A DNA stretch of 45,419 nucleotides from Mariprofundus sp. EBB-1. GTDB taxonomy: Bacteria; Pseudomonadota; Zetaproteobacteria; Mariprofundales; Mariprofundaceae. Made by a program: the position numbers and the translations under genes. Of this stretch, positions 120 through 45,419 are shown piece after piece. Numbering within the stretch: position 1 is the stretch's first letter; the number at the start of each line of letters is the position of its first letter. Location of the stretch: positions 1-45,419 of the forward strand of contig NZ_RCFQ01000025.1 in the NCBI RefSeq assembly GCF_003665155.1. Reading direction: 5' to 3'. The notes beneath the pieces were generated by a model. That model was given only the letters and a program-made list of their open reading frames with translations. It did not search any database and was not told where the DNA came from.

Positions 120-355
120 CCCTTGTTTCGGTCTTCCATGAAATACCCTGGCTCGACTGCATGCTCCTAACCCCAGCCGGAGGTACATTAAAATCGCTAA
201 TAAGGTGACATGATGTTTCTGCACTCTTGCCTTATCCTCATGTTTTTAGTGAACTGAATTAGTATCCTGTTTCTTTTTCGTTAGGCTTCGTTCAGTTTCT
301 GTCATCACAGAAGTACTGTTGTAAAAGTAATTTATCGGAGAAAACTAATTTCCTC

Positions 356-40954: not shown

Positions 40955-41398
40955 TTAGTCTCTATGATCATGTTCATAGCGTTCGCTACGATGGTGTCTG
41001 TTGTTTATGTAGACTGCTCTTTGCTGGCGATGAGAGACCGGGCGATAATACTTATATGAGACCGGACGATAGTGCTGGTATATGACCGGACGGTAGTGCC
41101 TGTATGTGACCGGGCGATAGTGGCGATATGTGACAGGACGGTAGTGATGGCGAGGCTGCTCTGTAACATAAACAGCCTGCTGCTGGCTGCCGATAAATGC
41201 GCCGGCAATGGTGCCGAGAACGGCACCAAAGAGAGCACCTTCAATGGCCTGATTCTGGCTTGAACCAACCACTGCCCCCGTGGTTGCGCCGACAACGGCG
41301 CCGGTAGCCATACTGCGATCCTGATAGGATGCAGCCTGGGCGAGTGGAGCTGTAAGTAGTGCAGCACTCAAAATGGTAGTAGAAATAAATGTATTCAT
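40955..41398 (-). CDS. Secreted glycine-zipper protein with YRPV repeats
   Basis: The 147-residue protein has a signal peptide (residues 1-22, ending LAQAA), a glycine-zipper membrane-spanning segment (about 30-72: ATGAVVGATTGAVVGSS, ALFGAVLGTIAGAFIGS) as in outer-membrane 17-kDa-antigen-like proteins, then five tandem copies of an eight-residue unit of form HYRPVTYR (about 83-123) rich in Tyr, His and Arg, and a His-rich charged tail. It is probably an envelope protein; the repeat is unassigned. The start follows CAGGAG. Confidence 0.78.
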   Translation of the reverse strand: MNTFISTTILSAALLTAPLAQAASYQDRSMATGAVVGATTGAVVGSSQNQAIEGALFGAVLGTIAGAFIGSQQQAVYVTEQPRHHYRPVTYRHYRPVTYRHYRPVIYQHYRPVSYKYYRPVSHRQQRAVYINNRHHRSERYEHDHRD

Positions 41399-41730
41399 TT
41401 TATTCTCCTGGGGGGATGGTCTCCCTCATGGGTGAGAATGCTACGGTGTGAACTGTTGTGGTGTGTATGCGCTGTGTAAAAACCATGCAAAGAAACGTAA
41501 AGCCCCGAATGTTTGAATGTGCATGGAAAGTTAAGGTGAGAATTCACCTGTTTTTCAAACAACCCGAACAGCTAGACTGTTGTGAAGTAATTGCCTGTTC
41601 CTTTATTGCCATCAAAATAATTCTAAAATCTACCCCATATGGGGGATTCGCATCGCAGAAATATCTGCTTAACTATATACCAAGGAGCATTCAGTTCGAC
41701 TTAGCATGATAAAAAGAGAAAGGAGATTAT
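41399..41730. other. 332-bp intergenic region holding operator 1
   Basis: An 83-codon frame (41458-41709) has no domain and runs through the operator, so it is not called. The region contains the palindrome at 41633-41644 and a -10-like block; the rest is featureless. Confidence 0.5.
41629..41676 (+). promoter_or_regulatory. Operator 1 and promoter block (CCCCATATGGGG)
   Basis: The palindrome CCCCATATGGGG (41633-41644) lies in the frame AATC-N2..GATTCG and is followed at a fixed distance by CTGCTTAACTAT (41665-41676). The centre is 26.5 bp before CTGCTT, exactly as in operator 2. If TTAACT or TAACTA is the -10 box, the palindrome is centred near -43, a class II activator position. It precedes the truncated secreted-protein gene at 41731. 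Confidence 0.6.
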
Positions 41731-41919
41731 ATGAGACAATTGATAATATACAGTGGATTTGTTCTCCTTTTCCTGGCTACATCATTAGCTTATGTGTTCA
41801 CAGCAGATGCCTCTTCGACTAATCAAATATTAGCACTCCAACCAACGCATAGCGGGGCTGATATGAGTATCAAATTACTATATCAAATCATTCGTCACAA
41901 GATTGATGATCTTTTCTAG
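41731..41919 (+). pseudogene. Truncated paralogue of the small secreted protein
   Basis: The 62-residue product has a signal peptide (IIYSGFVLLFLATSLAYVFTA) followed by TNQILALQPTHSGADMSIKLL, which aligns with SHQILSVQPTASGNDITINLV of the 134-residue protein at 43833. The alignment fades after that and a TAG stop ends it at about half length. It has a good AAAGGAG box and the shared operator, so it is still likely transcribed and translated. It could be a degraded copy or a short form. Confidence 0.6.
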
Positions 41920-41975
41920 CGGGTGCTGTTGACCTGTTCGGGTAAAAAAAAGCAGCCACTTCAGGCATTTTTAGT

Positions 41976-43658
41976 TTAGCTGGCAATATCTTCCAGAATC
42001 TTATGCCAATGTGAAAAGAGCAGATAATGGCCTTGCCTGTCGATCCACTGGTGTTTGACGGTGTTGCTGAAACCTTGTGAAAACAGTTTTATATTTTCGA
42101 TAGAGATATGATTATCCTCTTTGCCATGCCAGATATTTACAGGGCAGTTGATTGCTGCTGCAGAGAGCTGCCAATCTTTAAGAATAAATAGTAGTTCTTT
42201 GCCGATGGCATCAAAACCTTGCTGGCTAGCGATGTTAAACGCCTGAGTCAGGTTTTGTTGAAGTTGGTTTGTTTCGAGTTGGGTGCGATCACTATCGGGT
42301 AGATGATCTTTAATCCTGTTGAAATAGCTGTCTGGATCATTGGATGCAACTTTCAGCGTTAATTCAATAAACTTTTTGGCGGCTTTCGGGTTGGTTCGAG
42401 CCAGATGAATAATCATTTGGTTGATTGGCAAAATGGATTTAATATCTGATTGCTTATTGATAGGTGCGCCACAGCTCACCAGACAAAGCGCTTCAATCAA
42501 ATCAGGGCATTCGGAAGCTAAATTCATGCCAAAACTGCCACCGGATGAGTATGCCAATACAGTCACTTTGGATGAGGATACTATAGGGATAAACAGGCGC
42601 ATATCATCTAACCAGGTCTGCATGATGTGCCCGGATGCAAGCGTACTATCTCCAAATCCAGCCCGATCAGGAATAATTAATCGAATGCCTAACTTATTCA
42701 GAATCTGTTTATTCGCAGGAGCACTTAAACGACTACCGCTAACCGGGTGACACATTAATAAAGGGCTACCATTCGGCGGGCCATATTCAGCATATGAGAT
42801 TGTTCTACCCGATGGTAAATGCGCCAAAAGGTGATCTCTGTTCAATGTTTTTTCTGGTTTTTTATTATCATGAAACAGCGTTACCGCCGGGTTGAGCATA
42901 ATCATCTGTATTAATTCAGTCTGGCTATGCGTATTCGTTTTGAGAAATATTTTTTTGAGGTGTGAGCGAGCAGTACTTAAACCGATATGCATGGACAAAG
43001 CGGCACTTTCAAGGCTTGCTCTCCCATTACAGAGCTCGCATACCAGCGTTGTCTCTTTTGGTGTTAAGGCATACATCTGTTGGAGTGCATCACAGCAGAT
43101 TTGATGCTGCACAGTGTGATCGGATAAGTAGATAACGATCTGTTTTTCGCTGTGTTTACTGATCCAGAGATTCAAGTCATCCAGACGCAAAGATTGCCCA
43201 TCAACATGTTGATGTAATACTTCATCAATGGTTTTGAGAAAGGTGCTTTGATCTTTTTTATTGGTAAAACAGACATGTTTTACACCATGCTCAATTTTAA
43301 TGCTTTTCAATAACTCCAGCGCGCGATGATTGGCTGAAATGATATGCCTCTCTTCAGTCATCATAATGATACCCATCGGTATATTATTAAGGATGTTTTC
43401 GCTGTGTTGTTGATCTAATTGCAGCTTATCCATTTTACCAATTAACATATCAGCACGTTCAAGGTGCGGTAGCATGGCAGATAATTCTGCGTCAAAGGTG
43501 TGGGCAGGCGACTGCTGAATCATAGCATCCAGCGTATGAATGATTTCAGGCCATTGCTGCTGATTATCTATCAATGCATAAATGTTATGAATTAACGTTT
43601 CACGTAATTCACTGAAAGAGCGTGCCTCTTCAGGCTGTCGTTTTTGTAACATCTCCAC
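41976..43658 (-). CDS. LuxR-type regulator fused to an alpha/beta-hydrolase domain
   Basis: The 560-residue protein has: residues 1-80 helical; about 85-180 a PAS-like part (ENILNNIPMGIIMMTEERHIISANHRALELL); about 195-252 a LuxR-type HTH (LTPKETTLVCELCNGRA...LSTARSHLKKIFLKTNTHSQTELI); and about 275-560 an alpha/beta hydrolase. The nucleophile elbow reads AYSSG (Ser371; Gly-x-Ser-x-Gly with Ala first), with DRAGFGDST, Asp515 in HGKEDNH and His544 in QGHYLLF completing a probable triad. It may sense or cleave an ester-like signal. Starts are GTG 43658 or ATG 43652. It is flanked by two genes bearing the same operator. Confidence 0.82.
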   Translation of the reverse strand: MEMLQKRQPEEARSFSELRETLIHNIYALIDNQQQWPEIIHTLDAMIQQSPAHTFDAELSAMLPHLERADMLIGKMDKLQLDQQHSENILNNIPMGIIMMTEERHIISANHRALELLKSIKIEHGVKHVCFTNKKDQSTFLKTIDEVLHQHVDGQSLRLDDLNLWISKHSEKQIVIYLSDHTVQHQICCDALQQMYALTPKETTLVCELCNGRASLESAALSMHIGLSTARSHLKKIFLKTNTHSQTELIQMIMLNPAVTLFHDNKKPEKTLNRDHLLAHLPSGRTISYAEYGPPNGSPLLMCHPVSGSRLSAPANKQILNKLGIRLIIPDRAGFGDSTLASGHIMQTWLDDMRLFIPIVSSSKVTVLAYSSGGSFGMNLASECPDLIEALCLVSCGAPINKQSDIKSILPINQMIIHLARTNPKAAKKFIELTLKVASNDPDSYFNRIKDHLPDSDRTQLETNQLQQNLTQAFNIASQQGFDAIGKELLFILKDWQLSAAAINCPVNIWHGKEDNHISIENIKLFSQGFSNTVKHQWIDRQGHYLLFSHWHKILEDIAS

Positions 43659-43714
43659 ATAGTTTTAGATCATATTTTCAAATTCGCAAGAATTAATTGC
43701 AACTAATTTCAAAA

Positions 43715-43762
43715 TCTCCCCCATATGGGTGATTCGAACTTCTTTCTTTCCTGCTTTAATTG
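43715..43762 (+). promoter_or_regulatory. Operator 2 and promoter block (CCCCATATGGGT)
   Basis: CCCCATATGGGT (43719-43730) lies in AATC-N..GATTCG and is followed by CTGCTTTAAT (43751-43760) at the same 26.5-bp distance as in operator 1. It stands in the gap between the LuxR/hydrolase gene (minus) and the secreted-protein gene (plus), so it could also regulate the regulator. Downstream, TGTGAAA-N6-TTTCACA (43767-43786) is a second inverted repeat, near the likely start site. Confidence 0.6.
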
Positions 43763-43832: not shown

Positions 43833-44237
43833 ATGAAACATTACTTTTTAAACGGGGTGCTTGCTTTGCTGCTGATATTTACATCAGCGGGATATGCTTA
43901 CGCAGTTGATATATTAGCATCACACCAAATACTTTCAGTACAACCTACAGCAAGTGGTAATGATATAACAATAAATCTGGTCTTATCGAATATATCTGCT
44001 CAAAACATTAATTACATTACAGTGGATCAGAATGATTCGACATGGCAAATCAATGCTGCCACTACTCTCCCTCTTAAATTGGGCGCTATTATTGCAGGGG
44101 GGGCATTAGCCAATACTTGGCAACTAAACACAAGTCTTTCGAGTTTCGATGGCACTTTACCTTTAACAATTCACTTATTTTATGAAGATGCAAATGGAGC
44201 TCCAGTTGACATTGATATAATAAGTGTGGCGAGGTAA
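43833..44237 (+). CDS. Small secreted protein, family unknown
   Basis: The 134-residue protein has a signal peptide (LALLLIFTSAGYAYAVD, cleavage near residue 24), then a mostly beta-type sequence: QILSVQPTASGNDITINLV, YITVDQNDSTWQINAATTLPLKLGAIIAGGALANTWQL, LPLTIHLFYEDANG. There are no cysteines. It contains a G7 tract (44097-44103) coding GG. It is the full-length relative of the truncated gene at 41731. It leads a run with the PKD gene, 6 bp away, and is controlled by operator 2. Confidence 0.7.
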   Translation: MKHYFLNGVLALLLIFTSAGYAYAVDILASHQILSVQPTASGNDITINLVLSNISAQNINYITVDQNDSTWQINAATTLPLKLGAIIAGGALANTWQLNTSLSSFDGTLPLTIHLFYEDANGAPVDIDIISVAR

Positions 44238-44243
44238 CTAAAT

Positions 44244-45419
44244 ATGAAAATCAAAGCATTGAAATGTTTGTTGGCTATTCCTTTTTTTATTGTCGGTGTG
44301 ACTCAAGAGGCCATTGCTTTAACTGGGGGACCAGATGCAGGAGGGTATTCTTTTATTGATTCCCATGAAGTTGGAGGTCCTTCATATAATTATGTGGATA
44401 TTTCCTTAGTTGGCTCTGTTATCAGTCTTTATGATGACTCTTCTAGGATGGTGCCTATTGGATTTACTTTTAATTATTACGGTGTGAATTATACAAGCGT
44501 AAACGTTGGTTCTAATGGGTTTCTAACGTTCAATACGGGCAACTATGGTAGGTATAGTGAGTTAAACCTTCCTACGCCATGGATGCCGTCTACTGTTGTC
44601 GCTCCATTTTGGGATGATCTATATCCTAGGTATGGCCAGGTACATTATCAAACGCAAGGTACTGCACCAAATAGGACATTTATTGTACAATATAGGCCAC
44701 CTTTCTATTTTTTCTCAGGAACAAATAACTTTGAGGTAATTCTTCACGAAGGCAGCAATGATATATTGTTTCAATATGCTTATGCAGGAACTGTGAGAAA
44801 TCAGGGTAGTAGCGCATCTATTGGCATCCAACGTGATTCTTCTACCGGTTTGCAGTATTCATTTCGCCAACAAAGGGTAAGCGCTGGTTTGGCTGTTTTA
44901 TTTAGAGGAGGGCCTATTAATTCCGCTCCAACAGCGAGTGGGGGGGCTGCGCAGACAGCACAGTGTACTGGCGGTTCAAGTGCCAACGTTATGTTAGATG
45001 GCACCGCCTCATCTGATCCTGATGGAGATACGCTGACTTATTCTTGGACGTGGGATAGCGATAGGAATGGTATCTTTGATACAACTGTTACGGGAGTGAA
45101 TCCATCCGCTTCATTTCCTATTGGAACAATAGATATTTATTTGACCGTAGATGATGGCAATGGTCATACGGCCTCGTCAACCACTTCGGTTACAGTACAG
45201 GATACAACAGCTCCAACCGTCAGTGCAGGCGCTGATCAAACAATTGAAGCAACCAGTACTTCTGGTGTGTATTTTGATGTGTCTACTCAGGCAACGGCTT
45301 CAGATACATGCTGCGTTGTGACTCTTAACTCAGCACTAGGAACTTATGCTTTGGGCGCTCACACCCTAGCCGTGTCAGGTAGTGACTGTTCTGGAAATAG
45401 TGCGAGTGATTCAATGGTT
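44244..45419 (+). CDS. Secreted PKD/HYR-domain protein (partial, runs off window)
   Basis: An open frame of 392 codons continues past the window end. It starts with a signal peptide (residues 1-25, ending EAIA), then an N-terminal domain with GGPDAGGYSFIDSHE, IGFTFNYYGVNYTSVNVGSNGFLTF and VVAPFWDDLY, resembling nidogen-like/extracellular domains of secreted bacterial proteins (about 26-225). A PKD domain follows (about 233-315, DGTASSDPDGDTLTYSWTWD...YLTVDDGNG), then a HYR-like domain (DTTAPTVSAGADQTIEA). A G7 tract lies at 44940-44946. It is probably surface-exposed or released. Confidence 0.82.
   Translation, partial: MKIKALKCLLAIPFFIVGVTQEAIALTGGPDAGGYSFIDSHEVGGPSYNYVDISLVGSVISLYDDSSRMVPIGFTFNYYGVNYTSVNVGSNGFLTFNTGNYGRYSELNLPTPWMPSTVVAPFWDDLYPRYGQVHYQTQGTAPNRTFIVQYRPPFYFFSGTNNFEVILHEGSNDILFQYAYAGTVRNQGSSASIGIQRDSSTGLQYSFRQQRVSAGLAVLFRGGPINSAPTASGGAAQTAQCTGGSSANVMLDGTASSDPDGDTLTYSWTWDSDRNGIFDTTVTGVNPSASFPIGTIDIYLTVDDGNGHTASSTTSVTVQDTTAPTVSAGADQTIEATSTSGVYFDVSTQATASDTCCVVTLNSALGTYALGAHTLAVSGSDCSGNSASDSMV

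Follow-up and report, generated by a model that had tools for sequence, protein, structure and literature searches.

A conserved palindrome at a fixed distance from the -10 element as the putative operator of a PAS-LuxR-hydrolase regulon in Mariprofundus and related Zetaproteobacteria

The DNA analysed here (the window, 45,419 nucleotides) is contig C18 of the 2.88-Mb, 63-contig genome of Mariprofundus sp. EBB-1. It contains a gene for a LuxR-type protein joined to an alpha/beta-hydrolase domain (LuxR-hydrolase), flanked on each side by a gene for a small secreted-type protein; we name these two genes by their first coordinates, 41731 and 43833 (Table 1). The 41731 protein has no Pfam or NCBIfam match, and the 43833 protein is weakly related (E 0.02) to a divergent 123-aa secreted protein encoded beside the LuxR-hydrolase gene of another genome, G070. 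The large secreted protein encoded behind 43833 (44244) is a paralogue of an operator-linked protein on contig C30 (43% identity over 165 aa; L055 1-1911). Ahead of these genes, a glycine-zipper secreted protein (40955-41398, minus strand) shows HYRPV repeated in tandem within the C-terminal half of the protein (window 40955-41150). An Rfam search of the window gave no match, and an RNA element at the locus is unlikely.

Table 1. Features of the locus, domains of its LuxR-hydrolase, and sites and genes elsewhere that are discussed in the text
Feature	Position	Strand	Basis or remark
Small secreted-type protein, 62 aa, short paralogue of the 43833 protein N-terminus	41731..41919	+	18/50 residues identical
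LuxR-hydrolase, 560 aa	41976..43658	-	Pfam, AlphaFold, Foldseek
Secreted-type protein, 134 aa, first gene of a likely two-gene operon	43833..44237	+	
Large secreted protein, PKD and HYR domains	44244..45419 (runs off the contig)	+	6 bp behind 43833
Operator 1, 24-bp imperfect dyad, core CCCATATGGG	41627..41650 (core 41634-41643, centre 41638.5)	+	class consensus match
Operator 2, core CCCATATGGG	43713..43736 (core 43720-43729, centre 43724.5)	+	class consensus match
Putative extended -10 of the 41731 promoter, TGC TTAACT	41666..41674 (hexamer 41669-41674)	+	sequence; spacing kept at other operators
Putative extended -10 of the 43833 promoter, TGC TTTAAT	43752..43760 (hexamer 43755-43760)	+	sequence; spacing kept at other operators
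LuxR-hydrolase, helical N-terminus	residues 15-91		
LuxR-hydrolase, PAS fold	residues 96-180		
LuxR-hydrolase, GerE helix-turn-helix	residues about 198-252		
LuxR-hydrolase, alpha/beta-hydrolase	residues 277-559		
Site before the second LuxR-hydrolase gene	C1:84535-84552		TAGGGT at +31
Site upstream of a collagen-like secreted-protein gene (Pfam Collagen E 3e-11)	C20:42341		weak TTGAGT at +31
Site before a secreted PKD/HYR protein	C30:2051		TACCAT at +31
Site before small genes without assigned function	C61:23968		TAGGGT at +31
Phenol_MetA_deg or similar-looking genes	L063 1949-2668; L065 609-1556; L066 477-1475		

A first-pass annotation of this DNA had claimed that both small secreted-protein genes are preceded by a palindrome, and both palindromes are indeed present (AATCTACCCCATATGGGGGATTCG, core 41634-41643, and AATCTCCCCCATATGGGTGATTCG, core 43720-43729). 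The AATC motif it described was found as well, with a gap that is fixed at 2 nt and not variable from 1 to 3 nt. Its distance from each dyad centre to CTGCTT (starting at 41665 and 43751) is exactly 26.5 bp as claimed, and this block is best read as part of an extended -10 element whose hexamer begins 31 bp after the dyad centre (+31). If the hexamer is taken as -12 to -7, the dyad centre falls at -42.5, and transcription would start at about 41681 for the 41731 promoter and about 43767 for the 43833 promoter. Operator 2 is flanked by the LuxR-hydrolase gene and 43833, which are transcribed divergently; no -10 is found at +31 in the LuxR-hydrolase direction, so autoregulation of the window copy is uncertain.

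The 41731 and 43833 promoters are paralogous together with the first ~50 codons of their genes, as seen both in the protein comparison and in a DNA alignment. The promoters are thus old duplicates, and the spacing match within the window pair is by itself weak evidence, as it could be inherited. In the DNA alignment, however, the stretch between palindrome and -10 has diverged between the two promoters, and because unrelated promoters elsewhere keep the same spacing, we consider the spacing to be constrained.

A search of the whole genome revealed CCCCATATGGG at four places only, with none for the reversed-pattern control. The looser core CCCAWWTGGG has 17 genomic sites, but only six of them also have the extended flanks of the operator, and each of these is located at the start of a gene. 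Two are the window sites; of the other four, one precedes a second LuxR-hydrolase gene, two precede genes for surface proteins, and one precedes small genes. The motif is therefore not scattered at random through the genome, which was the outcome named in the first-pass annotation as telling against a regulon. Its description of the locus as a self-contained regulon did not hold, because the second LuxR-hydrolase on C1 has the same operator and further sites lie on C20, C30, and C61. The C61 site, slightly altered, was found again with its -10 in genome G019. This genome also keeps the C30 operator and the sequence preceding it (L155 2995-3110; L055 1911-2204), with TACTTC as the +31 hexamer; the secreted gene behind a C30-type operator was not found there. 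Copies of the core within coding sequences (gcvT-like, glmU-like, and others) were considered as operators and rejected as protein-driven coincidences.

To quantify the spacing, we used 29 oriented operator-gene pairs, with both promoters of the window left out and no selection for a -10. In 14 of the 29, the first base of TANNNT falls exactly at +31, in site lists that were compiled by hand from intergenic matches and include related genomes that are not fully independent, whereas counts over all offsets in 2000 shuffles peaked at 7. Where the core lies in coding sequence, 0 of 68 orientations had TANNNT at +31. The operator is used in both orientations, and about half of the oriented promoters are without TANNNT at +31, many of these being the second orientation of a shared site. 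That the identical spacing is simply inherited from a duplicated promoter, with no functional regulator behind it, could be argued from the paralogy of the 41731 and 43833 promoters and N-termini. This explanation is contradicted by the out-of-sample tests, since the same spacing recurs at unrelated genes in other genera, is missing from the coding controls, and is kept despite the divergence of the stretch separating the conserved blocks; we regard it as extremely improbable.

Judged by eye, the promoters have a -10 and no evident -35 element, and at the sequence level they show the class II (lux-box type) layout of a dyad near -42.5, a -10, and no -35. The earlier proposal of a common regulator binding near -43 gains weight from the out-of-sample promoters, at which the dyad would again be centred at -42.5; activation by this regulator is our reading of the layout. 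A repressor operator is the alternative, with a regulator at -42.5 that blocks RNA polymerase, or one that acts dually depending on its ligand. The site overlaps the would-be -35, activation and repression are indistinguishable from sequence, and we count in favour of repression that the LuxR-mediated repression reported for ainS of Vibrio fischeri requires a lux box overlapping the -35 (PMC5601948). However, the distance to the -10 is strictly fixed and no -35 is recognisable, which speaks against a repressor, and we find this alternative quite unlikely. A fixed -10 distance and a missing -35 are typical of activator-dependent class II promoters.

Searching with the window protein, we found LuxR-hydrolase homologues in 20 of the 78 genomes of the class; a profile search of the same class added proteins that mainly match the PAS-GerE part only, and a five-row alignment search of the genome contigs returned nine loci. 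For the upstream comparison we took 18 related genes chosen by protein only, with the N-terminus present and at least 100 bp upstream. Comparing the upstream regions of every called gene proved unsuitable because of over-long start calls and because some loci had been chosen for the palindrome. The exact core CCCAWWTGGG was present upstream of 9 of the 18 protein-selected genes, where dinucleotide shuffles predict 0.04, and a core with at most one mismatch was present upstream of 12 (0.54 expected from the same shuffles). An alignment of 22 distinct sites gave the class consensus TATAVCCCAT/WTGGGNGATGYG, with dyad information reaching 12 bp to either side of the centre. As in the window, the LuxR-hydrolase gene of G018, G053, G070, and G071 shares its operator with a divergently transcribed gene for a secreted protein or lipoprotein.

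The operator is absent before the class LuxR-hydrolases of G047, G030, G044a, and G045b, and more distant homologues (G384 and alphaproteobacterial types) are also without it; its absence from distant homologues is expected because the binding site would be clade-specific. Among the GerE-hydrolase fusions examined outside the class, none had an operator of the window type except for a variant dyad, TATACCCCATTTGAGGTATA, in a gammaproteobacterial metagenome-assembled genome (L185), where a lipoprotein gene lies in the opposite orientation. At L068 (G011:C38), another palindrome, CTACCCCTCAATTGAGGGGGG, lies just before the LuxR-hydrolase gene, and the recognition helix of the protein reads RGYMK, not RTQIK; the two possibly reflect co-varied specificity. 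A second LuxR-hydrolase gene in G044:C16 (L142 6600-8390) is found in two frames (65609-66610 and 66526-67359), apparently frameshifted, with the operator still upstream.

The GerE family (PF00196) was matched in all 11 homologues (best E 2e-5), which places them with the LuxR-type regulators; the window protein alone matched it below the curated cut-off (E 0.0044) and matched PAS_8 just above the cut-off, giving a PAS and GerE combination. PAS went undetected by Pfam in most of the 11 homologues, and the families listed for these 11 members include no Pfam match to an autoinducer-binding domain, with PAS and the helical region found instead. An AlphaFold model of the window protein had a mean pLDDT of 75.7 and contained all four regions of Table 1, with a PAS-like fold at residues 96-180 and the GerE helices at 189-255; its hydrolase domain matched esterases and bromoperoxidases in a Foldseek search. 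The window protein retains S371, D515, and H544 of the Ser-Asp-His triad, and all operator-bearing homologues in which this region is present retain the Ser. In place of the catalytic His, G013, G018, G071, G012, and the C1 copy of the genome itself have N, F, or S, and in the operator-less group G047, G044a, and G045b, the Ser is also lost. Because several operator-bearing homologues no longer have the catalytic His and the operator-less group no longer has the Ser, the hydrolase-like domain is most likely a ligand receptor rather than an enzyme. A Phenol_MetA_deg family protein is encoded directly 3' of the LuxR-hydrolase in G013 and G018, with a similar-looking gene in G071, a neighbourhood that is a possible hint at a hydrophobic ligand.

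The window-type operator was present in 10 of the 20 genomes with a LuxR-hydrolase and in 2 of the 58 without (Fisher p 7e-6), where the sites had been sorted into two operator types after they were seen; before a sister type was split off, the counts were 10/20 and 5/58 (p 2e-4). Of the two exceptions, one resembles a repeat region and the other, G035, has the operator before a secreted gene with no LuxR-hydrolase detected in a genome that is 82% complete. Co-occurrence and adjacency make the LuxR-hydrolase the best candidate for the protein that binds the palindrome, in keeping with its earlier designation as the obvious candidate. We also considered that the palindrome is bound by another LuxR/NarL-type regulator encoded in this genome and that the LuxR-hydrolase genes are merely among its targets. 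Besides the two LuxR-hydrolase paralogues, the genome encodes ten other, stronger GerE proteins, and the G035 operator fits this explanation too. It is further favoured by TGTCCCCCAWWTGGGGGACA, a sister operator of identical core and spacing, which has 7-11 sites in each of five Mariprofundus genomes (G005, G006, G008, G009, and G012) and none in 73 other genomes or in the control. TANNNT lies at +31 in 16 of 82 orientations of the sister sites, which precede genes for a SixA-like phosphatase, a DinB-like protein, and others (L266 3699 and 6235, L267 2935, L270 2454). As three of the five genomes (G005, G008, and G009) are without a LuxR-hydrolase, the core there is read by at least one other regulator. 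On the other hand, the window-type operator occurs almost only in LuxR-hydrolase genomes, mostly beside the gene, and the window genome has no sister sites, and we therefore judge it unlikely that another regulator is the binder.

Taken together, these comparisons give good support to an operator-promoter architecture that is real and conserved. We hypothesize, and consider it probable, that a one-component PAS-LuxR-hydrolase regulon has this palindrome as its operator, where a dimer at -42.5 activates surface-protein genes; what we infer from the sequences is that the LuxR-hydrolase binds, that it activates and does not repress, and that it senses a ligand. The PAS-LuxR-hydrolase dimer would bind the 24-bp dyad of the class consensus beside RNA polymerase and activate promoters that have a -10 and no evident -35, as LuxR does at the lux box. 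Its targets in this genome would be the 43833-44244 operon, 41731, the C20 collagen-like and C30 PKD/HYR genes, and one of the two LuxR-hydrolase genes, and in relatives the LuxR-hydrolases would activate their own genes too. The hydrolase-like domain would serve as the ligand receptor.

The closest parallel is the class II lux box of the quorum-sensing regulators LuxR and TraR, which share with our system the GerE-type DNA-binding domain, a dyad of ~20-24 bp that overlaps the -35 position (here with its centre at a presumed -42.5), and an operator that often lies between divergent regulator and target genes. In contrast to LuxR and TraR, the operator sequence is different here, PAS and alpha/beta-hydrolase domains are present, and no autoinducer-binding domain was found. 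The PAS-LuxR regulators of Streptomyces are not known to have a C-terminal alpha/beta-hydrolase domain. In these regulators (reviewed in PMC9774167), a PAS sensor is likewise joined to a LuxR-type DNA-binding domain. The taxa and the targets, however, differ from those here. An alpha/beta-hydrolase fold is teamed with PAS, in a signalling and not a metabolic role, in RsbQ with RsbP of Bacillus and in KAI2/D14-type receptors, whereas in our proteins the hydrolase, PAS, and DNA-binding domains lie in one polypeptide and the catalytic His is missing in several. Fusions elsewhere in the phylum, such as those of G310, G338, and G379, have the same order of GerE followed by alpha/beta-hydrolase, but their sequences are divergent and CCCAWWTGGG does not occur upstream.

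Literature searches returned no earlier description of the operator sequence, of hydrolase-fused LuxR regulators, or of such regulation in Mariprofundus, and no quorum-sensing-like circuit in Zetaproteobacteria; a paper on the Zetaproteobacteria stalk does not mention LuxR. A one-component LuxR-type regulator at -42.5 is known in kind, and the operator, the domain set, and the targets are new as far as these searches show. A bolder and rather doubtful idea is that a hydrolase pocket with partly lost catalysis senses a small molecule, possibly self-made, and switches on surface and matrix proteins via the -42.5 operator; the fused PAS-LuxR-hydrolase receptors would then represent a signalling system in iron-oxidising Zetaproteobacteria.

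What began as one pair of repeats has become a testable regulon across several Zetaproteobacteria genera, for which the operator and the promoter geometry are defined, a candidate regulator is named, and surface-protein targets are listed. The regulon would offer an entry point to the control of surface proteins in iron oxidisers and to the ligand of the hydrolase-fused LuxR family.
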